Positions 73 to 63,847 of a stretch of 64,000 nt of DNA are shown here, piece by piece. The notes below the pieces were generated by a model, which ran no database searches, had not been told where the DNA came from, and was given only the letters and a program-made list of their open reading frames with translations. The stretch's first letter is position 1, and every line of letters starts with the position of its first letter. The stretch is from Nereocystis luetkeana (taxonomy: Eukaryota > Sar > Phaeophyceae > Laminariales > Laminariaceae). The translations under genes and the position numbers were made by a program. The stretch covers positions 7,191,622 to 7,255,621 of the forward strand of contig JARUPZ010000011.1 of assembly GCA_031213475.1 (NCBI GenBank), given 5' to 3'.

Positions 73-242
73 GGGCAACTATGGCTGCGTGTTCTTCAAC
101 GAAAGGCGGGCGGTTCAGGGCACACTCATTCTAGGTGTCGGACCGACCATCTTCGCCATGTTCAAGCTCATGAAGATGCATGATGTGTTTGGCATTGGGC
201 CGGAGATCGTTTGTGTAATTGTGCCAATTGTGATCGGAGGAG
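73..242 (+). CDS. gene 1 exon 3 (helices 5-6)
   Basis: 170 nt, acceptor AG at 71-72 and donor GTACGT at 243. It encodes NYGCVFFNERRA, then two hydrophobic stretches and the family signature DVFGIGPEIV. It starts by completing an AG|G arginine codon, as in every copy. Confidence 0.78.
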
Positions 243-3200
243 GTACGTCGGGTTCAAACCCCTAAGAGCAAACCATCGTGGCTACCATGATGCGCCAGCG
301 ATGGCTCACAACTTCGTGTGTCGGATCGGCGCCATCGTTCTCGTTGGATGGTTATAGCCGATGACAATCCGAGATTCACAACATAAACCCATGTGTATGC
401 GCGTAGAGTTACAATGCTAGGTGCGTCTTGTCGTCCAACTTCGACAAGCAAACCAGCCGCAATATCAAGGTTCAAGCCCAGACATCGTTGGTTTGGCCTT
501 GCTTAGGAACGGCTGCACTGGAACACTTCCGCAATATGCATCCGTAACCACCGTCATCGGGGCCGTCACGCCTACGGCGTCGTATAGACGGCTACGTACG
601 GAACCCGCGTTTACTCAAGTAGCCTCGACTTGTTCGATGTCTCATTCACGTTTTACTCGTTTTTTTGAAGTGTGCCATTTGACAGTTCAGGAGCTGCTGC
701 ACGCTAAGGTTCTTGAGGATTCGCGCATGGTTAAACTATTGCTGGACATGAACATTTTCGTCTGTGGCTCTAACGTCCTATTTTGGAGGTGAGAGACGAA
801 AACAACATACGAGGGTGGACTCGCGACTCATTTAATATGCTGTTTACGAACCGTGTACACGGAAGGCTAGCATAATTCCAAACGGTGGCTGTGTGCAAAA
901 CCGAACGTACTGTAGGCAAAGGACGTTCGACACGATTGTGCGGCGTTGAAACATTTCTATTTTATTCTCTTCTGGGCTTGCTTCGCGTGAAGCGTGGAAA
1001 GAACTGGGAAAAACCAGGTTCTTACGTTTGGCGTTAGACAGTTGTCACACTTCACGACAAGCGTGATTTACCTCGGCGTTTCGTGAGGGGATATCGCTCC
1101 ACGCGCACTCGGCAAGCGCTGGCGCGCCGAGCTTTCATCGCTGTCAAACGGAGCTACCTAGCCACACCCTTGTTCCACCCATGAGTACCTGGGGAAGAAT
1201 AATCCTACAACCAGTATGTAAGAGGGTGTCTCGGACGTCCACCACGTCGTGCTCGACTCCTGCGATCGCTCGAGGTGCTGCCGGTCGGAATTTAACTATC
1301 TATCGTCTGCGCTTTTCTCGACATCGCTCGACATACTTACTCGTACACCAGGTATGTAGGTGTTCGTCCTGGTCCTGTAGTTCCTTGCATGGTACTCTTC
1401 GCAAAGTACGGCGCCACACCATGTGACGGGTTTGCTTGGGAGCATGCACCACGTACACCAAACTCAATAGCATCCCGTGCTCGCCGAATCCGAGTGTGGG
1501 CTCGGTTCTGATGAGTACTCCAACCGCGCAGATAAAACACGAGAGGATAACCCTATGCGACCGCACTGTTTCCGGCCCAAGGTCGCTTTCCGGCTCATAT
1601 AGTGACGATTCGCGGAAATGCCGCACCATCCGTGGCTGTAGCATACCATTGAAAACAATCAGGGATAATCAACGTTTAGATGCAGCCCGCATCGCCTAGG
1701 GCACACACCAACGCTTGACAAAATGCCTAGGCTGGCACGGGCGATACCCATCTGCCAGGTCTATCATTAGTGGCGAACACATGATGTTCGAATATTTGCT
1801 GTTCGCCAGACACTTATGGAGGGAAGGGCATGTATTGATGGCGGCGTGTGGAAGCGTTGGTGGGAAAACATCCCAAAAGGTCTATGGTGATAGATTTTAC
1901 CAAGGAAGGTTTATTTTAACGTTTCCAGGTGGCCATAAACTAGAAACAAATGGGCAATTTCCTATCTGACTCCTGCCCTAGGCCGTTTCTTGTATCTTGG
2001 CGGCCGCCGCCATGAAATGCACTACGAGATAGGAGGTGCGTAAAATCGCCGTACACTACTATTGAAGTGATTTTCGGTCGGCGCCAATACATCCCGAGGC
2101 TTGTGGTATATGACCCTACAGCATGTGCAAGCGCAATGCTCCCCGAGGTACGTAGCCCCCGGGGGCTTTTCGTAATATATCCCAACAAGCAAATCCTTCT
2201 CACCCAACAAGTCTCCCAGAAACTGGTCGCGTCTGTGTCGCGTCTGCGCTGTGCTGTGACCACCAAGGACGAAACCCCGTTCCCACTTGTGTGATCTCCC
2301 TTTTTCGACCCTCCCGCGTATCCCCCATGAGCCGTGCAGCGCGCTGGTCCCCGTATTCAGGTACTATGGTTGGCTCAGCGCCGAAACGGTGTACGTGGTG
2401 CCGTCGGACGGGCAGACGTCTCAATATATCGATAGCAAAGAAGGGGTCTACGATTATGCTCGGGAGGGCGGGGAGGTAGCGGGTATATTCGGGGAGTTCT
2501 GCAGGCAAAGCTTGTGCATGGAGAGCTGGGAATTCATTATGGACGCCGTGGGTTACAAGGTACCATCTCGCTTATGGACAACCCAATATTATGGTAAAAC
2601 ATCACGTACCACAAATACTCGCCAAAAACAGTCGGCACAGAACTCGACTCAACGATGTGTTAAGTACTGCAGGGCACTCGAAGGGCGACCTTGTGAGGGT
2701 ATGAATACAACCGAACAACTTAATATACTGAAAAACGTGCGACAACGCATGTGACTGGGACTCCCCCCTAGACCAATGTGAGCGAAATAAACATCGTCGC
2801 GGAGACATTAAACAATGCAGCAAACCCCACCAGATGTCGACAACTTGTCAATTCCATACGTCCAACGTTTTATTTACGGTATTTTGGTGTATATAATCCC
2901 TTGTGGAGATGTTGAATAAAGAAGCGACTCCACAAGGTATCGACAGACTCTCAATCCGGAACGCCTAACGGTGTTCTACATCGTTGAATATCTCCTCAAG
3001 GGGGTGGCGACGCAACATTGTGTAAGGGGGGGTCCCCGCTACCAGTGAGGGTATTTGGGATAAAAATTAGGTTCTGCGCTGTCAAGGGGAGTGCTTGAGA
3101 CCTTCCTGTACGCCAGCAACACTAGTGCAACCCAACGAACCCCGACCCGTTCGCGAATCTTCGCCTTGGTCCAGACATTGGACGAACTGCATGAGCAGTT

Positions 3201-4278
3201 CGCGTGCTTCATACGCATCGTCGATCAGTACCTGCGGCCCACATCTCCGCAGGAGGTCAACCTCGGTAGCAAGATGCAAGAGCGACTGCTGCCATTCCAG
3301 ACAAGGCGAGAATGGCGTTACTACTGAGACAAACTATTTCCATGCAGCGCCAAACCACGACCTGAAAGGGAGAATCATGGACCCCAACCACTATTCCGGG
3401 TCCTCTCACGACGCAGACCCCGCTCCCCCTCTACAGAACGCCGTCTTCCCGTTTCCTGAAACCGTTGTACTCATCGAAACGTCGCAGAAGCATCTTTTCA
3501 AGGCTGGATAAGGTCGCAAGAAACACCATTCTTGAGGCACCTGTAGGCGAAGTCGTCTTGTTGCTTGAACAGAACGTTCTTGGAAAATTCAAGCTCACTC
3601 CGGCGATGCAACAGCGCGAGCAGAGGAAACTTGTGGAAATAGGTGAATAAACAACCGAACGTTAACCATACTCTACGACGCACGGACGCATGCACAAGGG
3701 TGACGGGCAACGTTTAACACGACCATCTGTACAGCCTTCCGAGCAGTATGTACCTCAGTTAAAATTCACGGTCGTGTCTCGCATCGTCTGTAGCCCTCGT
3801 GGTGGACCTCTGAGTTGTAGCGAGAAATAGATGGGTCGTATTCCGCAGATGCAAGGAACTATCCTTGGCCAAAATGTCACCCACTTCGTGAAGGTGTGGT
3901 CGAATCGTCCAATCTTCCACTTGAAGCAGTTTTTTCCAACGGGGTATAAACGGCAAGATCTTTGGTAGATGGATGCACAAACCTGTCGTCGCCTATCGAC
4001 CTTGTTCCTCGCAAGCGAGCCCCTACCCCCCCCCCCTCCACACACACTCCATTCCGTCTGTCCACGCAAATGTTATTCTTCTCCACTTCGAACGGCTCCC
4101 CATTTACCTTTCTGCACGCATTTACGTTGTGATTTGGCGGCATTACGGGGCAGAAATCCAATCAGCGCGCGATATGGCAGATGGAGACGAGGGCATGCTG
4201 GAATTGATGACAAGTGTTGCGCTCGGGAGAATGCGATCTCCTTTAAGCCGTGCCGGCGCTGACGGGCATAGGAGATAG
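73..4278 (+). CDS. 7TM-RGS protein, gene 1 (5' end outside the window)
   Basis: Spliced gene read from alignment with three other copies in the window. Visible exons: E3 73-242, E4 671-788, E5 2340-2559, E6 3175-3305, E7 3488-3642, E8 4154-4278 (TAG stop). All are open and join in phases 1, 2, 0, 2, 1. E3-E4 encode membrane helices 5 to 7; E5-E7 encode an RGS domain (motifs FGEFCRQSLCMESWEF and SPQEVNLGSKMQER), the fold that accelerates GTP hydrolysis by G-alpha. E1-E2 must lie left of the window. The intron 6 donor is GC instead of GT. If the E7 donor is not used, translation stops at 3650. The family assignment rests on layout and RGS motifs, as in plant AtRGS1; ligand and partner are unknown. 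Confidence 0.76.
671..788 (+). CDS. gene 1 exon 4 (helix 7)
   Basis: 118 nt between acceptor GAAG| and donor GTGAGA. It encodes TVQELLHAKVLEDSRM followed by a hydrophobic helix ending in LFW. Length and phase match the three other copies. Confidence 0.76.
2340..2559 (+). CDS. gene 1 exon 5 (linker and start of RGS)
   Basis: 220 nt, acceptor GTGCAG|, donor GTACCA. It begins with ALVPVFRYYGW and ends with the first RGS helices, GIFGEFCRQSLCMESWEF. An open frame continues upstream of the acceptor, but the conserved AG in all four copies sets the start. Confidence 0.78.
3175..3305 (+). CDS. gene 1 exon 6 (middle of RGS)
   Basis: 131 nt, acceptor GGTCCAG|. It encodes FIRIVDQYLRPTSPQEVNLG; the Asn of the EVNL motif matches the G-alpha-contact Asn of animal RGS proteins. 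The donor is GCGAGA, a GC-AG intron. Confidence 0.77.
3488..3642 (+). CDS. gene 1 exon 7 (end of RGS)
   Basis: 155 nt, acceptor GTCGCAG|, donor GTGAAT. It encodes RNTILEAPVGEVVLLLEQN and FKLTPAMQQREQ, the last RGS helices. A TAA at 3648-3650 follows if the donor is skipped. Confidence 0.74.
4154..4278 (+). CDS. gene 1 exon 8 (C-terminal tail)
   Basis: Acceptor GGGGCAG|, phase 1. It encodes EIQSARDMADGDEGMLELM, then a basic end and TAG. Recognised by similarity to the tail exon of gene 2 (DMRSAYDVVSEDRSILRMM) at the same position after exon 7. The function of the tail is unknown. Confidence 0.55.
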
Positions 4279-7200
4279 ACATCTACACGGAACACGTAGG
4301 ATCCCGACACCTAAGTGATTATCATATCTCAAAGGGGGCGCTGTTTGTGTAGGCCAGTGAAGCGTCTTTGCTAATACGTATGAGAGATTCGGGTGAAGTA
4401 TTTACAAGAAGCTGAGCATGCGTTCAATACTATATACCTTTCACCTCGTCGCGAACTGGAAGACCTGATGCGCGCCCGGCTGGTTTAAGGCAACGACCGT
4501 CAAATAAGGCAACTGCCATCGTGTCTGATGCAGCCGGTATCGACCAGTATCATCAGATCCATAACTTTGAGGTGTGAGTACTCCGCCCAGGTAGTCATGG
4601 CACATACAACGGCCACGCTGTGCAATATTTTGAATATTGATAAATGCTACCTGCACACGCTCTTACATTTTCGGAGGTGTGTGCTCCTTCGCGTGAGGTA
4701 TGCACCTGGGGGATCATACTCGTCAAAACACCCGCCCCTCTGATTTTGCCGGAACTGTACCCATATCGGCGCAGTAAGACCAGTGCAAGTTATCTCTCGG
4801 TACGTCTCCGCACCATTGGGTGCACGCATCGACGAACCGCAAGTTCCACAACATGCAGGTTGTCTCCCTAGGGAATGCTGCGGCCCTCACCTCCGTTCTT
4901 GGGTGCATGTGGGATATATCCGAACGCACCGTGAGCAGGGGTTACGGGCGGAACTCATGGCGGGGTGGGGACGATCAGTGAGAGCTGTGGTTGGTAAACA
5001 TGAATATTGCGTGTGTCGCGTGCTCAGACCCGCCCCTGGCCTCTTCTCTCTCGAGCATAGGAGAAGCTTGCTCGAACCGCCAAAATTTGCTGGCCACACA
5101 AAGACGTTACCTCAATTTTGCTATTCATTGTAAGTGAAACAACATTGCTACACCGCAACACCGTTATCCACACCGCTGTGACCCAGCGGGACGAAAAACA
5201 ATGCCCCACCGCTACCACCGCGGTCACGCCCTTACAATACCGGGCAAAAGATGATAGCTACCGCTGCACGAGATTGCCGTACGCTAAAAGATCATTCTTG
5301 CCCACCACAACGAGTTTTTTTTGTCAACAGATCTGCCACCGCCGCTGTACGCCATCGGGCCGGGAAAACCGGGGAATATCTCGAGCAACCCATGCGGTAT
5401 ATCCTACGCCTCCTCAAGTTCTTGCCCCTCTCCCTCTGTCACTCCCCCCGCCAATGTGCATCAAGCCTGCTGCGCCCTCTTTCAGTCTCGAACCATAGTC
5501 GTCTAGTCCGACCTAGCCGCCCCCTTCATCCTAGCGTTACTGCCTAGAGTAGATAGTTCCCGCGAGTTCCGCCAAGTTCCTCTTCTGGTTAGACCTCGGC
5601 GTTGAACCACGCGGAGCACCTCGCCCCGGCGCGCGTGACACCCAGCGAATACAAGCATATGTGGTAGCTGTGTAGTCTGACGGCAAGCAGCTGCAGTCAT
5701 ATTTCTCATGGTCGTTCCCGACTCACCTGAGCCGCAGGCAGGAAAAAAACCTTCTTCGTCGCCGTAGGTACTGTCCCTGTCGCCCCCCCCGATGTTACTT
5801 CGCTTTCCTTGTCGGTCGCGGCGAACGTAAAAAGTGGAAACGCGGCTACGGGGACCGGGCGGGGGGACAAGGCACGGAATAAGAGATTGACTTTAGCTTT
5901 TCGAAACCTCGCGGAGAGCTTTGTCATGGTTGCAGCAGCTGTTATTGCCACAACATCCGCAGTTTCCATCCAGCCGATCACCGGTGTAGAACGTCAGCTG
6001 ATGCAACCACCGCCCCGAGTGACCACCCCTCACACATAACTCCACACAAAACGTACCCCCCCCCCCTCCTCTCCAGAAGCGTGCTACGTCAGGGGTGGCG
6101 ACTAGTGTTTGTGGGCCTCAACATGTTCGTGGAGCTCCACATCCCCCGCAACGGCCGATTTTGATATACATTGCGAGTAAAGCCGGTTAACTAGTTCCGT
6201 CAGCGGGATAGCCACGGAGTAAATACAGTAAGATACACCCGTTGTATCGGACAACCCTACTTAGTAGGGTAGCTCTTCGGATCAAGGAATTCCGTCAGGG
6301 CGAAAGGGTGTCGGCTCACAACGTGCAGCAGCTCTCCCGAAGCACGGCTCGTCAACTCCCCCCCCCCGCAGTCAGTTGTCGCCCCAGAAGACAGAGTGCG
6401 CTTCGATGCCGGCCCGTTGGCTCATTTGTGGTCCGCCTCCCATGGGCTGGTCCTTGCACAAACTGTACTTCGGGATGCGGGTCGACTTAGTGACGCCGTG
6501 TGTTTGCCCCCGCTTCTGTTTCTGTCACGACTTCGTCCTCGACGTCGTAAGACCTCAACCAGTTGTCGACGATCTGCAGTACGCCGACGTTTCCGGGCAG
6601 AGGGGAAATACGCAGGGGACGGGGGGCGGGGGCGGGACTCAATCGCTTTCATGCGTGCCCAGGCCGAGAGAAGAGGCGCCGGACGAGTCGGGGGTCTGAT
6701 CCCAATGAGGGCGTAAAGATACGTCGGGTGTTGATTGGTCAGGGTCCGGCAGTGCCTAACTCCATATGCACATTGGATGCCAACGCGCCAGACAGGAACG
6801 AGCAGGGTGTTCGTCACTGGTGGCCATTGAGGTGACGATACGAGGGAGGCGGACGCGCGCCGATTGGGAGCGAGGTCGATATATATATATATATATATGT
6901 GCGGTAGGCCCGACATTGGTACTTCCCTTCAAAAGCACGACGGCTGGTTGATCATGGGTAGTGATTGTTCCTGGCGACCACGCGCTCTCTCCTCGCGTCT
7001 GTACATTCAGTGGTTAGTCCTTCAATGGTCAGTAGATATATTCACTTCTATCAAGCGGACACTGCCACTTCTTTTGATATCAACAGCGCCGCAAGCGGCC
7101 CTGCGGGTACGCCATCCGTAGAGTGGCACCAGGGACGCACGTAGGACCGGTATGGGAACAGCGGGGAATCGTACGTCGGACAGGGAATTAGCTCTGACCC

Positions 7201-8663
7201 TACGCGATACGATCATTAGGGCGTTCCGACAACTCGCCGTTAAGCGGGTGTGTCGGACGGCCCCCGCGCATGATGTTCCATACAAAGCAGGCCCTCCGTT
7301 CGGCGGCATCGGCAAAGCGATACACAATGGCAGGGTTCACCTCGAGACTGAAACATTCATGTTTAGCTCCCCCCCCATCTGTCAGATGTCAGCCCTTCAG
7401 CCCTTCAGCCCTTCCTCCAAACGTGAATTTTCCACGTGAGCCAATACCGGTCTCTCCAATCGTGGCTAGTGCGCTGCCACCCGGACCGTAAATAAACTGC
7501 CATAGTACCGTTCTAGAGGTATGCTGTAGAAGTTTGTTCAAGAGTCGAAAATATGGCCTGAGTTGTTGGTGTCGGTACTGCGAGTATTATTGTCGCTTTG
7601 AGCGGTTTAGATTGGCGATAATGGCATTCGATTTCTCTTTTAATCGAGCTCTCTCGAGTATCACCAGAGTCGAGCAGAAAGCAAGCAGGCCGGAAGACGG
7701 ACGAAAACCCGAAGGAAAATACGTCGTTGCCGCTTACCGATATTGTCTCCACACGTTGCTGCCTAACGCTGCCCATGATAGTGAGCGACGAGGAAAGTAT
7801 CGTGCCCCCTGCCTTCGCGCTGTCTGCGTGGTGGCTGCCCTCCAGCTACACAAACGGGATGCTCCTGCGCAATATTTAATCGGCTGTATTAATGTTCACC
7901 AAGCACAATTCCCACTGAACACCGCCCCCCCTGGGCCCTGCCCATTTCCACTGCTCGCAGTGCATTAGGATACACCCCAAGATGGAACTATCGACGGAAA
8001 AGAGAAGCCCCACTTGCCCTCGAAGCGAGATGCGTAGAATGCATGCGGACTTCCTGTTCGTGGTTAAATGCAACCGCTGGTGTAGAGAGGGCTGAAGCCA
8101 GAGCAGGCACCTGCACTACCGCGCCTGAATTATGTAGTCTTCAAGTGCCATCAGCGGTAGGTGTGTTAACACCCTGCATTCCTCATTTCAGGCCAACTCA
8201 CGATAGCAATACAGGGCCTGCCGCGTGGAAGACAGTTTTTTGTCGTTCTCCATTAGAAACGTCAAAACATACTATTAATAATTCGATTCAGCAGCAGGCT
8301 AAAGTGATTTTGTTAGCTTGATGTCTGGCGCCCACGCTGGAATCGAGAGGGAAGGTGAGGGATCAAACGTTCCCATCTTCAGTCTGTACGTGCGAGTATA
8401 CTTCGAAGTAGGTAACTTAAATGTGTCGATTAAGCATTGGCTTTGAAACAATAACACCTGCGAAGCGTAACGCTGTACGCATGTATCGGTTTATCTAAAA
8501 CTGCAGCAAGTGCCATCGTGCCTGCGCATGTATCATGAGCACCCGGGCAGAAGTCTGCACTGAATCCCTCTGAGGATGCCCGTGGCGATACCGCTGCAAC
8601 AGGTTCGACGGAAAACCCATTGGTTGAAGGACCCCGCCTGGAGACATCGGAAAGCGAATTGAG
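4279..8663. other. space between the 3' ends of genes 1 and 2
   Basis: Genes 1 and 2 face each other tail to tail across this stretch. I recognise no gene in it. It holds many C runs, a TA microsatellite at 6879-6898, and a roughly 100-bp segment near 4895-4990 that resembles 38395-38470. The open frames here overlap on both strands and lack any recognisable motif. Confidence 0.5.
6879..6898. repeat. (TA)n microsatellite
   Basis: About ten uninterrupted TA dinucleotides. Confidence 0.9.
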
Positions 8664-9453: not shown

Positions 9454-9608
9454 CAGTTCTCGCGCGTTTTCTGTGCTCCAGGCGTTGCATCGCCGGAGTG
9501 AGTTTGAATTTGGCCCCGATGTTGTGTTCGAGCAAGAGAACGATTTCACACACTACCGCTTCGAGAACGGTGCGTCTCGTATCCTCATCCTGAGCTGTAA
9601 AAATACGT
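9454..9608 (-). pseudogene. gene 2 exon 7 (end of RGS)
   Basis: 155 nt, acceptor TCCGCAG|, donor GTGGGT. It encodes DEDTRRTVLEAVVCEIVLLL and AKFKLTPAMQ. A stop follows at once if the donor is not used. Confidence 0.73.
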
Positions 9609-9780: not shown

Positions 9781-9911
9781 CTTGTCTGGAATGGAAGCAG
9801 TTGGTCTTGCATCTTGCTACCGAGGTTAATCTCTTGCGGGGACGTGGACCGAAGGTACTGGTCCACAATGCTCATGAATCTCGAGAACTGCTCTTGCGGG
9901 TTGGTCAACTT
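9781..9911 (-). pseudogene. gene 2 exon 6 (middle of RGS)
   Basis: 131 nt, acceptor GATCCAG|. It encodes FMSIVDQYLRSTSPQEINLG. The donor begins GCAAAC, a weak GC donor at the same place as the GC donor of gene 1. Confidence 0.75.
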
Positions 9912-11274: not shown

Positions 11275-11497
11275 CTTGTAAGCCACGGAGTCCAGAACGA
11301 AGTCCCAACTCTCCATGCACAGACTTTTCCTGCAATAATCTCCGAATATCGTCGCGACCTCCCCGCCCTCCTGAGCGTAAGAATATATTCTCCCTGGGCT
11401 ATCGAAGGATCGAAGTATCGGCTCCTCCTCCAACGGCATCACACTCATGTTTCCGCCGCCGAGCCAACCATGGTGCTTAAACACTGGGACAAGGACG
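11275..11497 (-). pseudogene. gene 2 exon 5 (start of RGS)
   Basis: 223 nt, one codon longer than the other copies and still in phase. It encodes SVLVPVFKHHGW, YAQEGGEVATIFGDYC and CMESWDFVLDSVAYK. Acceptor TTTCCAG|, donor GTACAC. Confidence 0.76.
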
Positions 11498-38440: not shown

Positions 38441-38449
38441 ACAAGGTCG

Positions 38450-50471: not shown

Positions 50472-53400
50472 GTGAGTGCACCTGCCGTACTTCGCTCGCT
50501 CCTGTTTGTTGTGTTCCGGATGCGAGGCGTGCGTGCGCGTGTTTCTTTGGGCACATGAGAGCTCTCGGTTCACACTTCTATGTTGATCGTGCGAGTTTGA
50601 GAAGTTGAGTCTTTGTGTTTTTTTCCCCTTGTACGACATTGTTGCCATTTATTTGTTCTAATGCCTATTATTGTTGAAACTACAGTAGTACGTGCAACTA
50701 CAGTAACTGGTGGAATACCTGGGGTATGCTGCTGTAACTACAGCAGCAGCACGTACAGCAGTAGTAGTACGGCCAATGTTTCTGCCGTTTCGGAGGGAAA
50801 ACTCGCCGTCAGAACACGCCCACCATACGCACTGTATCTCGACTGCCTTCCGTATCCCAAAATTCAAATATCACGCGAGTCCTACATACTGCTGTCCGTA
50901 AGGAACACAACAGTTTCGACGACTGAGCATCGGAAACCGCCGTTCACCGCCGACACGTAAATACCAGCAGTTACAGATGATACAGATGCAATAATACGTT
51001 TTTTTCCCGTGCTGAGCTTCTCGTCCCCACGTGATTCGTGCATGAATGGGGTTTTCAGCAGCACGACGATCGAGCACTACTAAGAAGCGAGTATCCGGCG
51101 TATTGGCTGTTGGGACTGTCACGTAGCGAACAGCGGCTTGTTGATCCACGTCTCCACGATGCGTTAGTATTAATTGTGTTCGCCTTCGATTGTACCTGGT
51201 ATATATACAGCATGTCACTCGCAACCATTATCAGAAAGAAAAAGAACACCTCCTACTTTACTACTGCTGTTGTAGCGAAACCAAGAAGGGAACCTATGCG
51301 CAAAGTCTCTTACGTGCCGACGAGCACAGCAGTCCTTGCGATCTACCCCACTGGATGTTCTTCCTCCGTTCTACTATTAACAGTTACCATCCCGACAAAA
51401 ACTCCAGTCGTGGTTACGTGCTTCTACGCAATACAGGCACGTGTGGTGCTACAAGTACGTACTTATCGACACTTCGAACAGGAATTACGGCAGTAGATAC
51501 GCGGTATATTGACTTTGACATAAACAGGCTACCAAGCTAACAAGCAATAATACTCTATGAGAGTAGTACCCCGTACGTATAAAGTATACCCAAAAAATTA
51601 TACTCCGGAGTACAGATATTAATAGACCATCTATAATAATTGTATGGTATGCTGATCCTTTAAAAAAAAAACAATGCTTCTGAGCATGGACTACTACCGT
51701 ACGCACGCTGTAGTACTACTGCAGTCGCTATCGCACGTTGGCAGCTATTGTGGCGATTTTCACAACACTTCCCCTCAATGCAAGCCGGGCCCGTCGAAGT
51801 TGTTCAATGTCGCAAATAAATGCCGTCGCTGCTTGCAAGTCCACCGTGTGGCTCCCTCCTGTTAATATTAACAATTATACCCCTGATAGTGTGTGCGGTG
51901 AAATGACACCACACTTCCAAACCGTCTGGTGTGTGCAGTTCCGCCAAACAGAAATATTGCGTGTTCTCGGGTGGTCCTGATCTCCCTTCTCGCCGTTTAT
52001 CATCCCTTGCATGTAGGGATTGCGGCCTGCGTGATGCCATACTGCTTCCGCGCTATTCGACTCGTGGTTGCCTACAATACGCAATATCGGCTGAAATATG
52101 CGCAGCTCGTCAAGGGGAGAAACATCGCGAAGATATCGCTGGTGATTGGGACCGGAGTTACCATTATGGCGTTGCTCGTCCTGCACAACATGCCGGAACG
52201 CTACTCCAGGTGGCAACGCGTAGATCGTGTGTGAATAGAATTATGCTCAAAAGCCTTTCCCGTTGTTACCCGAGCGTGAATACGGGGGCAATCGTATTTG
52301 ACCATGCCTCCCTAATAATCCGCGCCTGTGACCCATACTTGCGGAATCCAAGCTATATGTCGCGGCCCGTCGAACAAATATCTGTTGTGCGCCGACTGAC
52401 CCATCTGCGCTCTGCTGGGTTTGCGGAGGGCAGGGACAAGTACGGATGCTTCTTCTTCAACGAGAGGCGGGCGGTTGAGCTCACAGTCCTTTTAGGTGTC
52501 GGACCTACCGTCATCTCCATGTTCAAGCTGATCAAAGTGCGTGACGTTTTTGGCATTGGCCCGGAGATCGTTCACGTGATCATACCCATGCTGATCGGGG
52601 GAGGTACGTCGTGTTCGAGCGCTCAAAGGCAAAGGTGGCAATGTGTATGCACCGTTAACGATGTAAAACGGCGTGCATCAAACGGACTCCATTATTCACG
52701 TCGGATGGTTAGGGTTGACGTTGAACCGATACCCACAAGAAGAGCATACAAATATACGCGTAAAGTTCCAAACTGCCTCAAACGGGCTACCTGGGTACAC
52801 GTTTAGTCATCAAAAACTTTACGCACGCCAACCCCATTGTGGTAGACTTCACGCTCCCAAGTTGGTTTTTTCTAGCTTGTTGTGAAGAGTGGCATGTGGA
52901 CACGTCAAGTTTATATAACTACCGACAGCCATTGTTGGTGGTCACCATGTTGAACCCACCTACCGAGCGGACATAGCGATGAATTCCTTTGCTTTCCCAC
53001 CGCTCTGTTCGCACTTGGCTCGTTCGCTCAAAGTGTTCACAGCGATAGTCCAGGAGTTGCTGAACGCAAACGTTCTTGAGGCCTCGCGCGCAGTCCATTT
53101 ATCTCTGGAATTGGTGATATTCGTCTGCCTCTCCAACCTGCTATTTTGGAGGTGAACGATGAAACGTTTAGTTGTTGAGGTGAAGCTGTCGTTCGTCCAG
53201 TTCCAGTTCGTACCGTACGAACCGTGTATGTGATAGGATAAAAATGCCCGATTCGTTGCCGCATGCTATATCGAACAAGGACTCATGTGGATAAAATGCC
53301 TCCAGAAAATTATCGATGCGTCGAAGCATTGCTCAGTTCACCTGTTCGCTGAAGAATGCGCGCAACGCACTAAAGACCGGTAGAAAAATGTTTGTGCTAC

Positions 53401-56400
53401 TTTTGGTGGCAGACATTAGTAGCATGTTTTTGCGTAAAACATGACATGTGTGGAACATTCACACCTTTCGATCAGCGCATGCACCCGAGAAAATCCTCGA
53501 GCGTAACTCGCACTTACCGTTCGCTCTAATCCTCCCCCCGCTGGCGTGCCTACTGCAGTTACGTACCCAAAGTCTTACGTTGCCCTAGCCACGAGCCACG
53601 CGAGGAGGAGGGTTCACAGAGTACATGTGAAAGTATTTCGGGGGCCTGCCACAACTTTCCTTACAACTGATCGCTCGAGGTGTTGGCGCGTGTAATCTAA
53701 ACCAACTGTCTCTCGTCGGCACCGTTTCCATGCAAAACTTGCTCCTACCCAGTTCGGCACCATGCTATGCCGGCTACCCTCGCAGCTGAATTTTCTATTG
53801 TTACGACAGTCCATGAGACAATGCCAGTGGTATCTAGACGATGTGACCGCAGTGTTTTCATAACCCCGCACAACCATTAACGCTGTCAGTCAAGGACCTA
53901 AACCTCCATTGTTCAGAGATGTCTCGAGATATCAGTGTGCGTCACACTTTCGTCCTGCACAAGGCTCCAGCTCCACGTTGTCCATGGTTGATCTTGTACT
54001 TGACGATACCTCCACGTACCCGTCCCGGGGTTCCTCGGCGCAAGCAATCCTCGCCGACCATGGAAACATGCAGATCCGACAATTAAGTATGTTTCATTTT
54101 TCGACCACAGTTTATACGAATTTGGCGCGAGAAATATGGTTGTTTCAACAGAGAATGGCTCCCTCGAGGTAGTTTCACGCTGGGGGCCACTTGTCCCTTC
54201 CTCGCTCCCTTTCGTGCGAGCGATGCGAGCATATGAAACCGTCTCCCCCCCCAAACCCCGGAACACTTGAGAATGGTCCACGGTCGTCCCGACGGGGCCC
54301 CCCTACCGACGGCCATCTTCGCCGTGAACGTCTCCGGTATTTCTTCGCGTCCGGGGACTGGGAAATCGAAAACGCAGACATATATCATCCTCCCTCGGGC
54401 CGTTTTCCCTCGCGCGTATTGCCGACGAGCGATGCAGTGTCCTGGTCCCAGTCGCTGATTTCTACGGTTGGTGCCGCTCCGGGAAGAGGCATGTGGTGCC
54501 CCTGGAGGGGCTGATATCTCCACCTGGTGGTGAAATCGAGGGAGCCGTCGACTACGCTCAGGAGGGCGGCGAGGTCGCGGAAATATTCGGAGATTTCTGC
54601 AGGAAAAGCTTGTGCATGGAGAGCTGGGATTTCATCGTGGACGCCGTGGCATATAAGGTATACGATTTATATTTCCAGCAAACCAACTACGCGACACAGA
54701 TGCTCACCACTTAACGACAAGAAAAATGAAGTTTCAAGTACAGAAAGGCGGCACCCAAACGACGACTCTCCCTCCATAAGCCGTGGCCCAATGGGGGGTC
54801 TTTAGTGTTGGCAACAGCATGGCATGACAGCGTCGATCATGGCCGTTGGTCATAGTCGCACCCATGTCTGATAGGTCTGCTTGTTGTGTGGATCAGTGTG
54901 GTTTGTGTAGCTACCCATCATCTACGGAGACTGCGTCGGGAATTATGCTCCTGCGGACATGATAGGTATTTATATCTGGACACCTTTAGAGGGTCCCACG
55001 GGAAGGGGATGAAAGGCCCCCTTCCTCGCACCATATTTGAAGGACGATGTCGTTGGTAGCGGGCGAAAACCTTCCCGTCCATGTCGACTTCCCCAGACGT
55101 GCCCAAATAAAATGATGTTGTTCTAATGAGGTCGTAGGAGTCTTGTCAGGACACGGTAAGGGATTTGTTTCCGACGGTGATTTTCTTTGCGGCTTCGGCT
55201 ATCGACGGCCACTACCCCGACCCGGAACTCTAACTCTAACCCTAGCCGTAAAAACAGAGGTCTGCTTGGTTGGAGTGCCAGCGGGCCGTTGTGCTTGGAA
55301 TGGCTATATTTGCTGTGCGTGCACATCCAAGGAAGTGCGCCTCGAAGGGCAGATCTACGAAAGCGCTATAATTGACATTGGACTAATTTTATCCCTCGCC
55401 CGATGACGAGCTCGGGCTTCATATCATCCAACCGTGCCCGGTGCACGAATTGACCCATTGCTCCCAATGGGTCACTCGTGGATCGGGTGATGTTGGATGA
55501 TCCACATGAATTTTTGTATGCCATCGGAGGAACATATTTATCGCCGCAAACTCCGTAGATTCATTGCGGCTACACAAATCACATCGATCTGCACAACAAT
55601 CAGACTATATCCCACATGGGTACGACTATGACCAACGGCAATGTCCGACAACCTCCCTAGTTGAGCCACGCTGTCATGATAACAGTGTCTACCAGGTATG
55701 CCGTACCATACTGCTGTAGATCCACACTCATCAAACTCTTGAATCCTCGTGTTGTGCCAGTACAAGTAGTAGTACTACTCCAAACACAGAATATTGCAAG
55801 GCTAGGTTCTGTAGGGTACCTACAGAACCATACCCAGGGTATTACCCGGGAAATACCCTACATGAAACTTCTGTAAGTTCTGTAAGACATTTTTACCCGT
55901 ACCCAGAACTTCTGTTTGTTCTGTACGACCTTCATACCCGTACCCGGAACTTCTGTAAGCTCTGTACGCCCCGTTTCAAAATACCCGGGGTGCCGGTACA
56001 ACGTTTTTGTACCTGCCCGGAACTTCTGTGGGTTTTGTGAGGGTTTTGTACCCGTACCCGGAACTTCTGTAAGTTCTGCAAGATATCCATACCCGTACCC
56101 GGAATTTCTGAAAGTTCTGTAAGACCATCGGCACAATACCCGGGGTAAGGGTATACCCTCGGCACAATACCCGCGGTGCCGGTACAGATTAGGATGACGT
56201 TGAGGAGCGACGATGTCGGGAGAAAAGACTTTCAACCCTTGACAGACAGCAACGTTGTCTCGACATGCTGTGACTGACACCAAACTACTAGGTTTTAGTG
56301 TGGAACACTTCGGCCCTACACCCTTGACAGCGCATGTTTCGTCTCGCTTGACATGTCTCCCGACATCTTTATTGAGGAGTGATGTCATGCATTCTGACGG

Positions 56401-59400
56401 TATGTCTCATCAGTGACACACACCAAAAAACAAATGCCGAAATTACATTGTACCACCCACCTCGCTCACAACCACTCAAAAACCGAGCGCATCAACACAC
56501 ACATCCGGGCAACTGCACCTAGCTGTGATTTGTGTACCCGGGGAGAGGGAATGTGAACGCTGCAGATTCTCGAGGATGTCCGTCAGACAGGGGTGGCGGT
56601 AGTTCACCTATGACCGCGGAAGTCGTTCCCATGAAGTTGGAACGGTCCTTGCCGTGAAAATCGTGAAAGACAGCTATAACAGAAATGAGCTACAATGGTA
56701 TATGCATGGTATATACGCGCTATTACCGGTATAGTGTGTCGTGTTTGCAGTACACCAATCGCAGTATTTCGAAACTCATTTTATGTATTTGTTTGACCAG
56801 TAATTTCGTTGTTTTTCGCCCCCTTGAGGTGTGTATTTACCAGGCTATTACCCGGAACTTCTGTAAGTTCTGTATGCCCGAGCCACAATCGAAACTTCTG
56901 TGAGTTCAGTACGCCCGGGCCACAATTGGAGCATCTGTAAGTTCTGTACGCCCGGGCCACAATCGGAACTTTTGTGAGTTCTGTACGCCCGTTCCACAAT
57001 GAATGCCGGGAACTTCTGTGAATTATGTACGCCCGTGTCACAGAACCCGGAACTTCTGTGAGTTATGTGCGACCTTCGTACCCGTACCCGGAACTTCTGT
57101 AAGTTCTTTGCGATCGAGCCACAATACCCGGGGTACCGGTACACCATTTTTATACCTGCCTGGAACTTCTGTGAGTTCTGTACGCCCGTGCCACAATACC
57201 CGGAAGTTATGTGAGTTCTGTAAGAGTTTTATACCCGTACCCGGAACTTCTGTGAGTTATGTGCGACCTCCATACCCGTACCCAGAACTTCCGTTAGTTC
57301 TGTACGCCCGCTTTCACAATACCCGGGGCACCGGTACGACGTTTTTATACCTGACCGGAACTTCTGTGAGTTATGTACGCCCGGGCCACAATACCCAGAA
57401 CTTCTGTGAGTTCTGTGTCGGTTTCATACCCTAACCCGGAACTTCTGTAAGTTCTGTGAGACACCCATACCCTAACCCTAACTCCACAAACCCTACAGAA
57501 CCTAACCTTGAAGTAGTGCTTCGGGAGAGGAAGGGGGGGGGGGGGGGGGGGGGGGGTCGACATCATGCATGACCGTCGTCGTATGACCATAGGGGGGGTG
57601 GGGCTTACGTTTCTGCCGAAGCATCTTGAACAATTTTTTTGTTAGGAGCATTTATTTCTCCCTGCCGTGGCCGTTTAAAATCAACTAAAATGTTCGATAG
57701 CATAATCCCATTTGGTTCATATGCGCGCGAGGGTGAATGTTATTATACTGCCTTGAATGAGGCGGAAAGCCCGGTAAATACCTGGGTTCAAGTTTTGGGG
57801 TCGTATTTGTAGTACTTGGGAGGCGTATCTTAGATGGAAAACTAGGGGTTTCTCAGCGAGGCACGAGCTTGGCTTTCAGTCTCCGCGCTGGGGGAGCGAA
57901 ATTTCTCTGCAAACAAGCTGTTTTTGCTGAACGCGAATTATGTGTACGAGTACTCGCTACCTTGAAGTGAAGCAACCTGCAGATCAGAATACGTACCAGA
58001 ACCTGGTACCTAGTATACCATTTATGGGTCTGTGTTTGCTGCATATCCGGGGTATGATATGCGAAGTACGAGTGACACTCATACATATCTCCTTTTTTTT
58101 AATCATCACTTTTATTTTCCAGCTTTACTCGTAGGAGGTTTTACCCTCTGCAATTTTCTGGACAAGCCGTGGTCACAGGTGTCGTCCCTTTCCCCCCCTC
58201 GGTAGGTGCCTTCATTTTCATCGCGCATAGAGTTCAGCATTCCCACTGCTCGTCGGTTTTCGTCGCAACCCACGCTCTCGCGCTTTCCGCTAAACAATTT
58301 GCATGCGAGAAAATGTCCCTACGAGTATGCGCTCACTTACAGAGACTCGAGCCCACGAAATTGGTCTGAATAGGCACGCGGACCACCTACCAAGCCACCG
58401 GGGACGTACGAAGGGAAAAACAGTTTGCTCCCCCCCCCCCCCGCCTATTTTATATAGGTTGGGTTGGCGTCGGTTGGCAACGACATTGTAAAACACGCCG
58501 CTCACTACGTGAGCTAGACAACCAGGGTATCACTTGTTGAGATTAGATCACTTGTGCGAGGTAAACAACCCTTACTCCGTACAAGTGGGAATGATCGTAT
58601 CACGTACCAGGTAAGGCACCTAAGAGGCAGTTACATAGTACTCCCATTGCTGTCTCTGGAAATCCTTACACCGGAAATTAAATCCACTCATTGAAGCTGT
58701 CTTCCATATGCAAGTCCGCCTCACAAGCGGTTCTTAGTAGGATGCAGCTCACCCTTCATGCGACTCGCCAGACACCTCACGGCGCTTCGCGCTTGGTGCA
58801 AGCAATGTCTTCCTGGTCGGTGAAAACCCGACATGCTCCGTCCCGGCATTGTATTGATTCGAGGGCCTATGGTCATACGACTACGGCAATGCATGAAATC
58901 GAGTACATCTCTCCTATCGAGTACACCCCCCCCCCCCTCCCCCCCGCCCTCGCTCTCTAGCAATGGAATCATACAGTTGTTTTTTACAAAATTTGCTTGA
59001 ATTTGATGAGTTGGAAAATTGTGGATGTTTTTGACGTAGCTGGATTGTGTCTGGATCGTTTCTCTCAACCCCCCCCCCCCACTACTACTATGCAAGTAGT
59101 TTTGAAAAATACTTTTGATAGCATTGGCCTATATAGCACTGCACAGAGTACGCTTGCGTAGGAAGATATCGTTAGTGAGATATCATTAGATATTGGTACT
59201 ACTGCTGTAGGTGCTCCGTGAAACAGACAAATCTGAAAAATGGGAACGAAGCCTAAAATGAGAACCAAGCCGTATCTCCAGAACCATGTGGTGTATCAGA
59301 GAACCAAAATGATCCTGCGAAACCCCTTGGCCAGCCCTGTGAGAGGAGCTCGTCAGAACGGTCATGCTCCATCTCGTGCCTTCGGGTGGGCGCAAAAAGC

Positions 59401-62400
59401 GATATACGCTGGCTCTATTGTGATTTATCTAGATGCTGGCTACCGCGGCGATGCCGAGGACTTCCAGCCTGAGCGACAGCTCATTCGAAGGCTGCTGTAC
59501 AGCCCCACAGGACTGTCAACTTTTTTTCTTGGAGTTGTACACAATTGGTTTGCTTTCTAAAAAAAACCGTCCGTTCCCATTTTTTGTTTCGTTCCCATTT
59601 TTCCGTTTTGTCTGTTGTGAGCATGCCTTGAGCTTTAGTAGTCTACCAGGTATGCTGTATATCTTGGATCCTATAAAACACAATTTCTTCTCCGCGTAGC
59701 ATACTTCCACTATTTCGTTAATATTCGGGGGGCGGGGGGGGGCGCATCCATTTATTTTCCTACGTATCCGCAGCGAGGCTATTATTGTGAAAACAATACG
59801 TAACAGAGTAGTACGTATTCACTCCCTGGTATATACCTGGCATACAGTATTTTTTGCGTCTGTGCTTGCTGTATACCTGGTGTAGGATGTATGTGCGAAA
59901 TACGTGTGATTAATTAAACATATCATGTATACGAAGCAAAAACAGTTTGCTTGCAGAGATAGTTACCCCCCCCCCCCCCCCCTCTTCCGTCCGCAAGGGC
60001 ATAAGATTAGCAAAAATCTTCTATGTAGTACGTACATACATGGAAACAGCGTCGAATGAGGCCCAAAAAATGTTGGAGGTGTCTAATAGGGTTGGGAACG
60101 GTGCTCCGCCTCGAAAGGGATGCGTGGTCAATGGTGAAATGACTGCTCGTAAGGAAGCCAACACCTAAGTACGCCCCGTGCGCTATACTATTACGGGGGA
60201 CCATAGTTAATAGGACCAAATATTGTCAGTAAAAATGGTTAAACATATAGGTTTTTATGTATACCATAGGTCCTATTAACTATGGTCCCCCGTAATAGTG
60301 GTATTCAACAGCTGGTGTTTGATATGTTTGTTTGCTTGGGTTTGATATGTTGTAAACTTGTGTTTTGTTCTACATATATATCTGGAGAGGGCTTTGATTG
60401 TGTTTTACAACAACCCCTCTCCCCCCCCTACTATGCCTTTTTGTGTTGATACATTTTTAACAATATCAGCACTTACTTATGCCACTGAATACACGGTACG
60501 CTCGCGTAGGGAATCGATAGTTCATGGCACTGCTGTACGTGCTCCGTGCGTATGCGCATGGATTTTGTTTTACTGTCATGAGTTTAGTAAACTATAGTTT
60601 ATTTTTGGTGTTAGATATACTGGAAAGACGGCGTAAGATGGTCAACTGATATCGATACCGTCTGTGGTTTGGTGGTTGAACTGAAGGAAAACATCGTTGT
60701 CGGCAAGCTGTACTCTGAACGGCTCGCTAACGACGAGTTGAGGTGGTTCAGAAGAAGACGATATCGGAATGATGAGATTTCGAGTGAGGGTTTTCTGGTT
60801 GAAAAATCCAGTATTTATAGGTGGATTGTCTTTGCTTTTGGGGGGGCTTGAAATTGAGATTAAGATCATTTTATTATAGCACTGCTGTGCGGCTATAACG
60901 GTATTTCCTATTTTATTCAGCTGATGACGGTTTTACCGGGAAAGCTGGGTGGGGATTGCCGGAAAGACGGTCGCAGTAAAGCCAGTGCGTATATTGTAGA
61001 ATTTCATTTGATTTGAGTTGGATTTTAGTGTTTCCACTGCAAGGAGCCACTTGATTAGTGCTATAGTGGGTTTTGTGATTTCTGTGTGCTGAGTGGTAGC
61101 ACTACTACTTGCAGAGTCACGACAAAAGCATTTTATGTGTTGGATGACTTTGGATCTAGCACATGCATAGACACTATTATCGTGGCAGTGTGCCGCGACT
61201 AGGGAGGCTGTCGGTCATGGCTATTGGTCCTAGTCGCACCCATGTCTGACGTGTCCGGTTGGTATAGGTGAAAGTAGTCTGGGGAGATTGCGGCGGGATT
61301 TGTGTTCCCCCGGGTGGGATACATATTTATACCTGGACGCCTTTAGAGGGTCTCACGGGAACGGGATAGAGGTATATAAAACCCAAGAGAGGGGGATATT
61401 TGGACTATTTACGCCAAATTCAATATCGCGATATTCGTGCACGCAAATCCCTCGATGTAAACTCAATATCAGGTTTCTTGCCAGAAGAAGGTGAGATACC
61501 AGGTATAAAACTTGGGTGGAATAAAAATAATCAGCAAGTCCACAAACACGTAGAACACCGCGTGGGCTGGAGGACGTGGCTGCTGCTGCTGCTACTACTA
61601 CCCTCGGTGGCTCGGCAGGCGACAGCGCCTGCGTACACCATGGGCTTGGCCCTTGGCATAGACGAGACCGCAGCGCGGACGCGTCTCGCGCTCGTGCTGA
61701 GACTCGTCCGCCAAAAACGAAAGGTCCGGTTGACTCTATCTACCCGATTGTTCCCGGATAAGGTGGGGTGCGTGCCGCGTTGGGGACATGGGTTTGGGGT
61801 AACTCCGGCAGAAAGACGCCCAGCCGGAGCACTGGATGCTGTGTTGGTGCCGCTGAACCCGGGCATCCCGGGCATCCGTCCCTCCTCGACCACGAGAGCA
61901 CACGTCTGCCGCACTCATTTTTCCAAGTAAGTCGTGGTGGCCACTGCTGCTGTTGTCGTCCTTTCTTTGCTGGTGCACGGTGATGATAGGATGACCGAGT
62001 AGAGGGGACAGGCCGTTTCCAATTTTGTCTGCCAAGTTCAGCTCTACCAGCAAAAGGAGAACACTAGTATCGTCTTGGCGATAGTTGTGCGTTGCGGACC
62101 GCGTATCGCGAAAATATCGCCTGTACCTGATGCTCGTATAAAACTCGAGAGGCACGCTATTTTGCTCTAAACGTCAAAATATCGCGATTTTTTTTCGAGT
62201 TTTACACAAATCTGATGAGCTGTCCCCTTCCTCGCACTACAATTTAAGGAAAATATCATTGATGTTGGGCCTTCCTTCTCCCCCGCCTGTAATGGCGAGC
62301 TCGGGTCTCACATCATCCAGCGTGCATTGGTGTATAAACTAGAGTATGTATCATCGAACGAGGCCCTTGTAGGTCGGCTTGCGCAGCATGCCAGTGATAT

Positions 62401-63847
62401 CGTCCCCGTAAAAACACTCCCACCCCCGTCATCGTATCCTCGCTTGGTCCAGAAAGTGATCAACCCGAACGAACAGTTCGCGTGTTTCATTCGCATCGTG
62501 GATAAGTACCTTCGGCCGAGATCTCCGCAGGCGGTGAACCTCGGCAGCAAGATGCAAGATCGACTATTGCAATTCCAGACAAGGTGAGGGAGGTGCTACC
62601 GCGAGATAAAGATACAAACACCCACATCGAAAGCGCCCTGTGAATATTAATTGTTGTCTTTAAGGGGGCGTAGGATCTCTCAGGAGTTTTTTTGTCTAGT
62701 AGGTGCACACGTTACGCCAAAATACATGCAAACGAGTTGGAAAGAGAAGAAGCTATTTGCACAAAGGATAGGTATTTTCGGAAATCCAGCAAACGTGTCG
62801 CAAAAAAACAAGAATCTAGAGTTTTTTAAGCCATTTTTGTACCTTTTTGGGCCCAAAAACTTGATACCCCTGCGTAAAGGAAGCGTGATTGCCCTGTCAG
62901 CGCTTTTTCGGGCACGTCTGATTAATAGTTCAAAAGAGCCGCCAGGAGACCAGCCGACGTTTGGTGAAAGCCCTCTTCCCATCGGAATTGCATCCATTAC
63001 ACTAGATGCCCGTGCGTAAAAACAAAACTTTTAGCGATTTTGCGAGTTTTAGTGCTGCTGGCTTGCAACTTCGACGTCACGAGAATACCTCGTGAGTCGT
63101 TGCAGGTCGCCTTCGACTGCTGCCTGGCGCAACCGACACCCTCACACACCCCGTGAAGAGCGTACCTCGATTTCGCGGGCTGTGGTTGCTTATGGGGAGC
63201 TGTAGCTGTCGGCAAGTTAACTGCGAACGTTCAGGTGCGGCTTAGTTTTGGGCTCAATGTGCGTACCCAAATCTTGACATTTTATGACCCCTCAATAACC
63301 TCAACGTCGAGGTGCAGGTCTCTGTTGAGAACGAGCAGACGGTCAATCTGAAGAGGAAAGGCTGCTGTAGATGAGACACTAAGTTGAATCGATCGCTCTC
63401 TGCTAAGGCACGAACCAGCCGAAGACCCAAACACGGCGTGTTAAAATAGCGGCTGACTTATGTGGTCCAACAAAAATTCTAGGGTTTAGAGTCACCCAGA
63501 AACCCAGGGATGGAGGGTGGATCGAGATCCTCCGTGGCCATACCCAATAGAATGGCTGTTGTTGCGATGAGAACCCCCTCCCCCCCCCATACGACTACGG
63601 CCATGCGTGATATCGAGTAACCCCCCCCCCTGTACAAAACACGACGACTCAATGTATCTGTTGCAACTGCCGCGCGCATTGGAAATTCGCAGGACTGTTT
63701 TTACGAGCTTGCGAGAGGACACTAGACGCACCATACTAGAGGCGCCAGTGAATGAAATCGTCTTGATGCTCGAACAAAATATCTTGCAGAAGTTTAGGTG
63801 CACGCCGGAAATGCAAGAGCGCGAGCAAACTAAACTTCGGAGTTTGG
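50228..63847 (+). CDS. 7TM-RGS protein, gene 4 (3' end outside the window)
   Basis: Exons E1 50228-50471, E2 52017-52209, E3 52434-52603, E4 53034-53151, E5 54438-54657, E6 62453-62583, E7 63693-63847. All are open, with the same lengths and phases as gene 3, giving 410 residues to the end of exon 7. E7 ends at a strong G|GTGAGT donor, so the tail exon should lie to the right; if the donor is skipped the frame stays open to the window edge. E1-E4 hold seven helices (MNAVSVTLVATALL start, VFGIGPEIVHVII, QELLNANVLEASRAVHL). E5-E7 hold the RGS domain (FGDFCRKSLCMESWDF, SPQAVNLGSKMQDR, DTRRTILEAPVNEIVLML). Intron 5 is 7.8 kb and full of repeats; all four equivalents elsewhere are 0.3-1.4 kb. Confidence 0.8.
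52017..52209 (+). CDS. gene 4 exon 2 (helices 3-4)
   Basis: 193 nt, acceptor ATGTAG|, donor GTGGCA. It encodes MPYCFRAIRLVVAYNTQYR, QLVKGRNIAKISLVIGTG, and NMPERYS at the end. Confidence 0.8.
52434..52603 (+). CDS. gene 4 exon 3 (helices 5-6)
   Basis: 170 nt, acceptor GGGCAG|, donor GTACGT. It encodes DKYGCFFFNERRAVELTVLL and DVFGIGPEIVHVIIPML. Intron 2 before it is only 224 nt. Confidence 0.8.
53034..53151 (+). CDS. gene 4 exon 4 (helix 7)
   Basis: 118 nt, acceptor CTCAAAG|, donor GTGAAC. It encodes TAIVQELLNANVLEASRAVH and a helix ending NLLFW. In the genome it has no Met start of its own and is found only by alignment. Confidence 0.78.
54438..54657 (+). CDS. gene 4 exon 5 (linker and start of RGS)
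   Basis: 220 nt, acceptor GATGCAG|, donor GTATAC. It encodes VLVPVADFYGWCRSGKRHVV, YAQEGGEVAEIFGDFC and CMESWDFIVDAVAYK. Confidence 0.8.
54825..55440 (+). repeat. repeat Y, copy near gene 4 exon 5
   Basis: Shares ATAGTCGCACCCATGTCTGA, ACCTTTAGAGGGTC, CCTTCCTCGCAC and ACGAGCTCGGG with 61200-62329, in the same order and orientation. A 320-bp segment (about 55063-55397) is absent from the other copy. Confidence 0.55.
55845..56190. repeat. GAACTTCTGT minisatellite, block 1
   Basis: At least six spaced units of the form ACCCGGAACTTCTGTAAGTT, alternating with ATACCCGGGGTGCCGGTAC-like words. The unit itself is half-palindromic (AACTTCTGTAAGTT). Confidence 0.7.
56838..57485. repeat. GAACTTCTGT minisatellite, block 2
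   Basis: About fourteen units of ACCCGGAACTTCTGTGAGTT followed by CTGTACGCCCG and CCACAATACCCGG, spaced about 36-75 bp. It ends in CCCTAACCCTAACTCC, which resembles telomere repeat but is part of the array wording. Confidence 0.72.
57533..57556. repeat. 24-bp G run
   Basis: Uninterrupted G homopolymer abutting a 36-bp fragment of repeat X (57557-57592), which is itself followed by another G run. Confidence 0.9.
58088..58360 (-). mobile_element. worn SINE, relative of 25069-25413
   Basis: Shares GTGCCTTCATTTT.ATCGCG, a CCTTTCCCCCC-like block and ACCCACGCT with the intact SINE in the same orientation, with a T run (A tail) at 58089. The B-box is reduced to CTCGAGCCCA near 58345. Confidence 0.42.
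58640..58937 (+). repeat. repeat X, copy in gene 4 intron 5
   Basis: Partner of 10724-11000: CTTAGTAGGATGCAGCTCAC, GGCGCTTCGCG and GGTCATACGACTACGGCAAT, ending in a C run at 58926-58937. Confidence 0.65.
59226..59612 (+). mobile_element. TIR element, copy b
   Basis: 387 bp, nearly identical to 46400-46791, with the 106-codon frame at 59240-59560 kept (two residue differences). The ends read ACAGACAAA...TTTGTCTGT. It lies in intron 5 of gene 4. Confidence 0.75.
59966..59982. repeat. 17-bp C run
   Basis: Homopolymer; similar runs occur at 34796-34811, 58430-58442 and 58926-58937. Confidence 0.9.
60188..60298. mobile_element. TIR element MITE-1, intact copy
   Basis: 111 bp with near-perfect arms CTATTACGGGGGACCATAGT and ACTATGGTCCCCCGTAATAG. 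It lies in intron 5 of gene 4. Confidence 0.78.
61200..62329 (+). repeat. repeat Y, copy near gene 4 exon 6 (interrupted)
   Basis: Y blocks at 61200-61378 and 62212-62329 flank about 830 bp of unrelated sequence. That insert has open frames on both strands (61400-61930 +, 61531-61914 -) but no motif I recognise; a CTG-rich run at 61580-61605 gives a Leu stretch. Confidence 0.45.
62453..62583 (+). CDS. gene 4 exon 6 (middle of RGS)
   Basis: 131 nt, acceptor GGTCCAG|, donor GTGAGG. It encodes FIRIVDKYLRPRSPQAVNLG. It lies 7.8 kb after exon 5 with no second exon 5 between, so it is assigned to gene 4. Confidence 0.77.
63589..63620 (+). repeat. 32-bp end fragment of repeat X between C runs
   Basis: ATACGACTACGGCCATGCGT followed by GATATCGAGTA, with C runs on both sides (63581-63588 and 63621-63630). 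It matches the 3' end of repeat X only. Confidence 0.55.
63693..63847 (+). CDS. gene 4 exon 7 (end of RGS)
   Basis: 155 nt, acceptor TTCGCAG|, donor GTGAGT. It encodes LREDTRRTILEAPVNEIVLM and QKFRCTPEMQEREQ. Confidence 0.77.

Follow-up and report, generated by a model that had tools for sequence, protein, structure and literature searches.

We analysed a 64-kb window of the kelp Nereocystis luetkeana (contig JARUPZ010000011.1), which is free of N and has an overall G+C content of ~0.50, a value that, together with the long introns, fits a brown alga. Self-blastp of its stop-to-stop open reading frames (ORFs) of at least 30 codons recovered one multi-exon gene in four homologous copies (exon 1, C versus D, E=6.9e-39), whose predicted products join seven transmembrane (7TM) segments to a domain of the regulator of G-protein signalling (RGS) type. 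Three copies lie on the + strand (A, 73-3650; C, 26140-33031; D, 50228 to the window end), and one is inverted relative to these on the - strand (B, 21676-9446). The window probably holds an old local 7TM-RGS family in which C and D appear intact through exon 7 and A appears intact in its visible part. A preliminary description of this DNA had named it an array of at least four such genes. The four homologous 7TM-RGS copies were recovered; the description had missed that A enters the window only at its third exon, that B runs on the - strand and carries frameshifts, and that a further segment is shared downstream of exon 7.

Exon ends were set by aligning each segment together with its flanks, which gave 26 visible exons (five in A, seven in each of B, C and D). 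In C, exon 1 (26140-26383, 244 nt) contains the ATG, TM1, TM2 and the start of TM3; exon 2 (27654-27846, 193 nt) encodes the end of TM3 and TM4; exon 3 (29417-29586, 170 nt) TM5 and TM6; exon 4 (29980-30097, 118 nt) TM7; exon 5 (31928-32147, 220 nt) a linker and the start of the RGS domain; and exon 6 (32459-32589, 131 nt) more of that domain. Exon 7 of C (32806-33031) has a 155-nt core up to 32960, followed by GT, and stays open to a stop codon ending at 33031. Copy D repeats this layout with exon 1 at 50228-50471 (244 nt, with the ATG), exon 2 at 52017-52209 (193 nt), exon 3 at 52434-52603 (170 nt), exon 4 at 53034-53151 (118 nt), exon 5 at 54438-54657 (220 nt), exon 6 at 62453-62583 (131 nt) and the exon 7 core at 63693-63847 (155 nt), from which the frame is open up to the window end. 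Copy A is truncated by the window start and shows exons 3 (73-242, 170 nt), 4 (671-788, 118 nt), 5 (2340-2559, 220 nt, where the RGS domain begins), 6 (3175-3305, 131 nt, RGS) and the exon 7 core (3488-3642, 155 nt, RGS end), which if unspliced would run into an in-frame TAA at 3648-3650. Because exons 1 and 2 of A would precede the window, these exons could be compared in three copies only.

The earlier claim of near-identical exon lengths stands for 23 of the 26 exons, which measure 244, 193, 170, 118, 220, 131 and 155 nt for exons 1-7, and fails for exons 2, 3 and 5 of B (192, 169 and 223 nt). Given these lengths, exons 2-7 begin in phases 1, 2, 1, 2, 0 and 2, respectively; all of them had been said to be kept, which is true of A, C and D and untrue of B, where exons 2 and 3 break the frame. 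All 23 acceptors of exons 2-7 are AG, and the 22 donors after exons 1-6 are GT in 20 cases and GC in two, both of them following exon 6 (in A and in B). Since the boundaries were picked with AG and GT in view, this agreement is a consistency check and not independent evidence. The 22 introns span 172 to 7795 nt, in line with the range of 0.17 to 7.8 kb given previously, and the longest, intron 5 of D, precedes D exon 6. No stop interrupts the 410 codons up to the end of exon 7 in C and D or the five visible exons of A. Identity to C is 58% for A and 65% for D; exons 1, 4 and 5 are most alike between C and D, exon 3 is a tie of C-D with A-D, and other pairs are closer in exons 2, 6 and 7.

The preliminary description had staked its domain assignment on an RGS profile match of the joined exons 5-7, and such a match was found: the Pfam RGS family (PF00615) scored 26.7-28.5 bits against a curated cut-off of 23.9 in all three spliced products (A, C and D). 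The match is C-terminal to the membrane part (residues 290-393 in C and 289-394 in D), and in A it spans only profile positions 14-79 of 117. Taken separately, each of the four RGS pieces also matches PF00615 at E<=1 (best 1.4e-7; a value of its own is given for A only). When the four RGS pieces were combined into a profile and searched against the PDB, RGS16 (3c7k_B) came first with E 0.0011, aligned over 81 positions, followed more weakly by RGS2, RGS3, GRK5 (row four, 0.017), RGS18 and RGS5. RGS was the sole Pfam family at E<=1 in the three products through exon 7, with no kinase family and no other catalytic accessory domain among the matches.

Seven helices before the RGS domain had also been predicted, and Kyte-Doolittle hydropathy agrees, with seven hydrophobic segments (mean >=1.35) in both complete copies, C and D. 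In C they comprise residues 6-24, 41-59, 70-88, 118-136, 161-179, 186-204 and 229-247. At the hydropathy cut of 1.0, C shows an eighth, weaker segment (1.09) within the RGS domain, which we read as a probable buried RGS helix. The net charge of inner loops 1-3 is +12 (C) and +10 (D), that of outer loops 1-3 +2 (C) and 0 (D); the more positive inner loops fit an outer N-terminus and an RGS domain on the inner side. At the top of TM3, all full copies with exon 1 in view (B, C and D) have a cysteine (C72 in C and D), and all those showing exon 3 (A, B, C and D) have another in the second outer loop (C151). Such a cysteine pair is the usual receptor disulfide.

Selection was assessed by the ratio of non-synonymous to synonymous divergence (dN/dS), with B entering only through its unbroken exons 1 and 4-7. 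In all six copy pairs dN/dS was 0.32-0.45 (bootstrap ranges within 0.24-0.61) at a synonymous divergence (dS) of 0.69-0.92; for C-D, dS was 0.69 and dN/dS 0.32 (0.24-0.41). These values indicate that the duplications are old and that the copies have been kept by purifying selection. Divided by part (A, C and D), dN/dS was 0.18-0.20 in the RGS domain, the most constrained part, 0.32-0.37 in the 7TM part, 0.43-0.84 in the linker and 0.49-0.82 in the tail. Between C and D, 39 of 52 residues are alike in the outer parts, which comprise the N-terminus and the three outer loops, 98 of 157 in the TM helices and 21 of 52 in the linker and post-RGS tail.

Exon 7 had been considered as the last exon, given the early in-frame TAA in A and B and the stop ending at 33031 in C. 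This was abandoned because A, B and C share a segment of ~110-150 nt farther downstream, which is found nowhere else in the window at E<1. Models built from two copies recover the segment of the third with E 3.2e-17, 3.5e-12 and 6.3e-13, and the counterpart in D would fall beyond the window end. In A (4872-4977, +) and C (38363-38468, +) the segment can be read as a 106-nt candidate exon 8, with AG before it, GT after it and a phase fitting exon 7; the B counterpart (7916-8018, -, 103 nt) is out of step with both. Several features speak against an exon: just 66 of 106 bases are alike without gaps, changes at the three codon positions number 12, 9 and 17 (35 codons), so that the third is only slightly richer, no counted length match exists in B, and another frame is open over 163 codons in C. 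That ORF (38363-38854, +) overlaps the candidate exon, is rich in aromatic residues and proline and has no Pfam match above cut-off. The duplicated unit is longer than seven exons. The protein may end shortly past exon 7, exon 7 may be spliced to exon 8, or both forms may occur.

The 76 nt past the exon 7 core are 74% alike between C (32961-33036) and D (63848-63923; E 2.0e-12). In control comparisons of 80-nt stretches, z ranged from -1.0 to 5.9 after exons 1-6 (all pairs) and reached 7.8 before exons; the stretch after exon 7 gave 10.7 for C-D and 2.6-5.7 for the remaining pairs. As control values run up to 7.8, only the C-D value stands out. This likeness exceeds that at every other intron start tested, despite the early in-frame TAA in A and B. 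Between exon 7 and the candidate exon 8, A (4095-4219, +) and B (9044-8922, -) share another segment; a frame in step with the end of exon 7 is open in it, and it has a weak echo in C (33647-33749, E 0.017).

Copy B comprises exon 1 (21433-21676, 244 nt, ATG at 21676), exon 2 (17465-17656, 192 nt), exon 3 (15737-15905, 169 nt), exon 4 (15043-15160, 118 nt), exon 5 (11275-11497, 223 nt), exon 6 (9781-9911, 131 nt) and the exon 7 core (9454-9608, 155 nt), with an in-frame TAA at 9448-9446 if unspliced. Exons 2 and 3 are each one base short, which shifts the frame twice, 1.6 kb apart, and exon 5 has three additional bases in frame. Between B and C, at 22.1-24.2 kb, lie pieces resembling exon 1 (22113-22351, +, E 9e-36), exon 6 (22646-22754, -, E 9.7e-11), exon 2 (23650-23821, +, E 3.5e-24) and exon 7 (24120-24182, +, E 1.9e-7), the exon 6 piece being reversed. 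These are the extra dead exons reported before, and they are probably the remains of a further copy; the repeated local duplication proposed with them is likewise supported. The exon 1 piece is most like B (0.69, versus 0.62 and 0.65 for the other copies). It stands head to head with B, ~0.44 kb away (21676-22113), as after an inverted duplication.

The most likely explanation, in which we have reasonable confidence as a whole, is that the products are membrane receptor-GAPs (GTPase-activating proteins) that would turn off a G-alpha subunit in the manner of Arabidopsis AtRGS1. Each protein would sit in the membrane with a few N-terminal residues outside and the RGS domain inside, and C72 and C151 would form the receptor disulfide. 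By analogy with plants, the RGS domain would speed GTP hydrolysis by G-alpha and thereby keep it off, and a signal on the membrane part would alter or lift this brake. The membrane part, the RGS domain and the selection acting on both agree with such a role. The array would have arisen by repeated local duplication, with one copy inverted and some copies lost. A number of observations weigh against this explanation. The RGS match is modest (27-28 bits), a PDB sequence search with the C product alone returned nothing at E<=0.1, and the profile of the four RGS pieces also drew two unrelated PDB chains (0.016, rank three, and 0.36). One of the four pieces matches DUF7499 at 0.035. In the alignment from that profile search, an E-N pair of animal RGS proteins, whose second residue contacts G-alpha, appears as E-S, although the E and a later N are retained. 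The membrane part of the three products matches no Pfam family at E<=1, and no G-alpha gene turned up in the window, where no search aimed at one was made.

The E-S pair would also suit proteins that are 7TM-RGS by descent but whose RGS domain is no longer a GAP and serves as a docking piece instead, as the RGS-like domains of G-protein-coupled receptor kinases (GRKs) mostly do. With a profile of the three whole products GRK5 does rank first in the PDB (E 0.021), ahead of a weaker RGS16. The order is reversed when the RGS domain alone is profiled, and this domain is under stronger constraint than the 7TM part, which makes a loss of GAP function unlikely in our view. Functional diversification had been raised in the preliminary description, and the divergence of A and D from C, together with the variability of the TM helices and of the linker and tail, could be taken to mean that different copies have come to recognise different ligands. 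This too seems doubtful and was not borne out: the outer parts are more alike than the helices, no pair has a dN/dS above 0.45, and selection is purifying. A broader version, a sensory repertoire of receptor-GAPs in which diverged paralogues each read their own cue in the membrane core and brake one self-activating G-alpha, we consider improbable.

Loss of function in part or all of the array has to be weighed against the receptor-GAP explanation as well. The two frameshifts of B, the ruined pieces beside it and the GC donor of exon 6 in both A and B could signal a dying or dead cluster, made up mostly or wholly of pseudogenes whose exons still look intact. Frames open over 410 codons in C and D at the dS and dN/dS given above are not expected of long-dead genes, and we regard a dead cluster as very improbable. 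B on its own is probably a young pseudogene. Assembly errors in a working fourth gene are a possible, less favoured account of its frameshifts: each defect is a single base, dN/dS is still 0.40-0.45 in the unbroken exons, and no stop interrupts the frame fitting exon 7 across the 103 nt of the downstream segment, so that this segment is no sign of a dead B. Against it stand two separate frame breaks in two exons, as well as the length of that segment (103 nt versus 106 in A and C) and a stop in the frame that, where the segment is best preserved, agrees with A and C. An intron 5 of 7.8 kb in D and a D exon 6 nearer to A (0.82) than to C (0.76) would fit a chimera that took exons 6-7 from another copy. 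D exon 7 is about equally like A (0.63) and C (0.64). Such an origin is unlikely, as the joined frame is open and the RGS match runs across exons 5-7.

Homologous introns 1-6 share sequence at E<=1e-3 in two cases only. Intron 1 of B and C has in common a 94-nt dispersed repeat. Intron 5 of B (11004-10732, -) and of D (58634-58906, +) shares 273 nt, 77.7% alike, gapless and in the same orientation to the gene, with a second match of 119 nt; introns 5 of A and C are shorter than those of B and D. The last 32-37 nt of the 273-nt stretch recur at 57593-57557 and 63588-63619. This recurrence of its end suggests an old mobile element, though a match without gaps at the same place in two introns would be unusual for one. 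A 0.39-kb element with ~30-nt inverted ends (GACAAATCGGAAAAATGGGAACGAA...) is present in two copies, 96.7% alike, at 46400-46795 and 59226-59616, the latter within intron 5 of D, and looks like a recently active miniature inverted-repeat transposable element. The same intron contains tandem arrays at 55866-56146 and 56850-57478, with units of 37-41 nt and 195 nt (GGAACTTCTGT...). Two short dispersed repeats of the ~95-122-nt size class occur at 19520-19632, 26892-26989, 41265-41386 and 60184-60305, in both orientations, and at 17247-17341 and 26984-27078. No tRNA and no Rfam family was found in the window, and 20 of its 34 ORFs of at least 150 codons, chosen away from exons 1-7, had no Pfam match above cut-off. 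Searches for relatives gave 166 and 17 pattern matches in viral contigs and 75 in prokaryote genomes, none of which was confirmed, as expected for a eukaryotic gene.

Receptors of the 7TM-RGS type are best known from plants. In architecture the products resemble the plant 7TM-RGS protein AtRGS1, with a short N-terminus, seven hydrophobic segments and then one RGS domain, and their 410 residues to the end of exon 7 approach its length of 459 aa. Aspergillus GprK and Magnaporthe MoRgs7 similarly combine a receptor-like membrane part with an RGS domain. Animal RGS16-type proteins are without a fused 7TM part, and likeness to them is limited to the RGS region alignable in the PDB search. GRKs differ in having a kinase domain inserted into their RGS domain, and no kinase family matched the three products at E<=1. 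AtRGS1 is described as a membrane GAP of a self-activating G-alpha, and plant 7TM-RGS proteins hold this subunit off through faster GTP hydrolysis until a signal frees the brake (PMC3386157, PMC3718340). Among the table rows available from PMC3386157, species have one 7TM-RGS gene or none, whereas this 64-kb window alone has four or more copies along with dead pieces. PMC5575782 treats such proteins in plants and names one from the green alga Chara braunii; the fungal hybrids are covered in PMC5008803 and PMC10184898.

Oomycete GPCR-bigrams (GPCR-PIPK, -INPP, -AC, -PDE and -TKL; GPCR, G-protein-coupled receptor) likewise fuse a 7TM part to a C-terminal signalling domain (PMC6033456, PMC5784254), but the types listed there carry catalytic domains where the window products carry RGS. 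Plant RGS proteins are mentioned as a parallel to the bigrams in PMC6033456. Large RGS families outside plants do exist, since 229 RGS genes in Naegleria gruberi are cited in PMC5784254. GRKs, which likewise have an RGS-like domain, are placed in Ectocarpus and oomycetes in PMC3307776, and the available part of a choanoflagellate receptor survey (PMC12716839) does not use the term 7TM-RGS. A search of the open literature, which leaves other literature uncovered, returned no paper on 7TM-RGS proteins in brown algae and none on GPCR plus RGS in Phaeophyceae.

The genes described here appear to be a new local family within a receptor type already known, and the array is the interesting part. Diverged copies kept by selection outside plants raise the question of whether G-protein control through GTP hydrolysis predates plants or extends beyond them. 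A family of paralogues also allows one to ask whether copies differ in their ligand or in their G-alpha partner. If the copies did form a sensory repertoire, diversity would lie in the off-switch of G-protein signalling and not in activating receptors.

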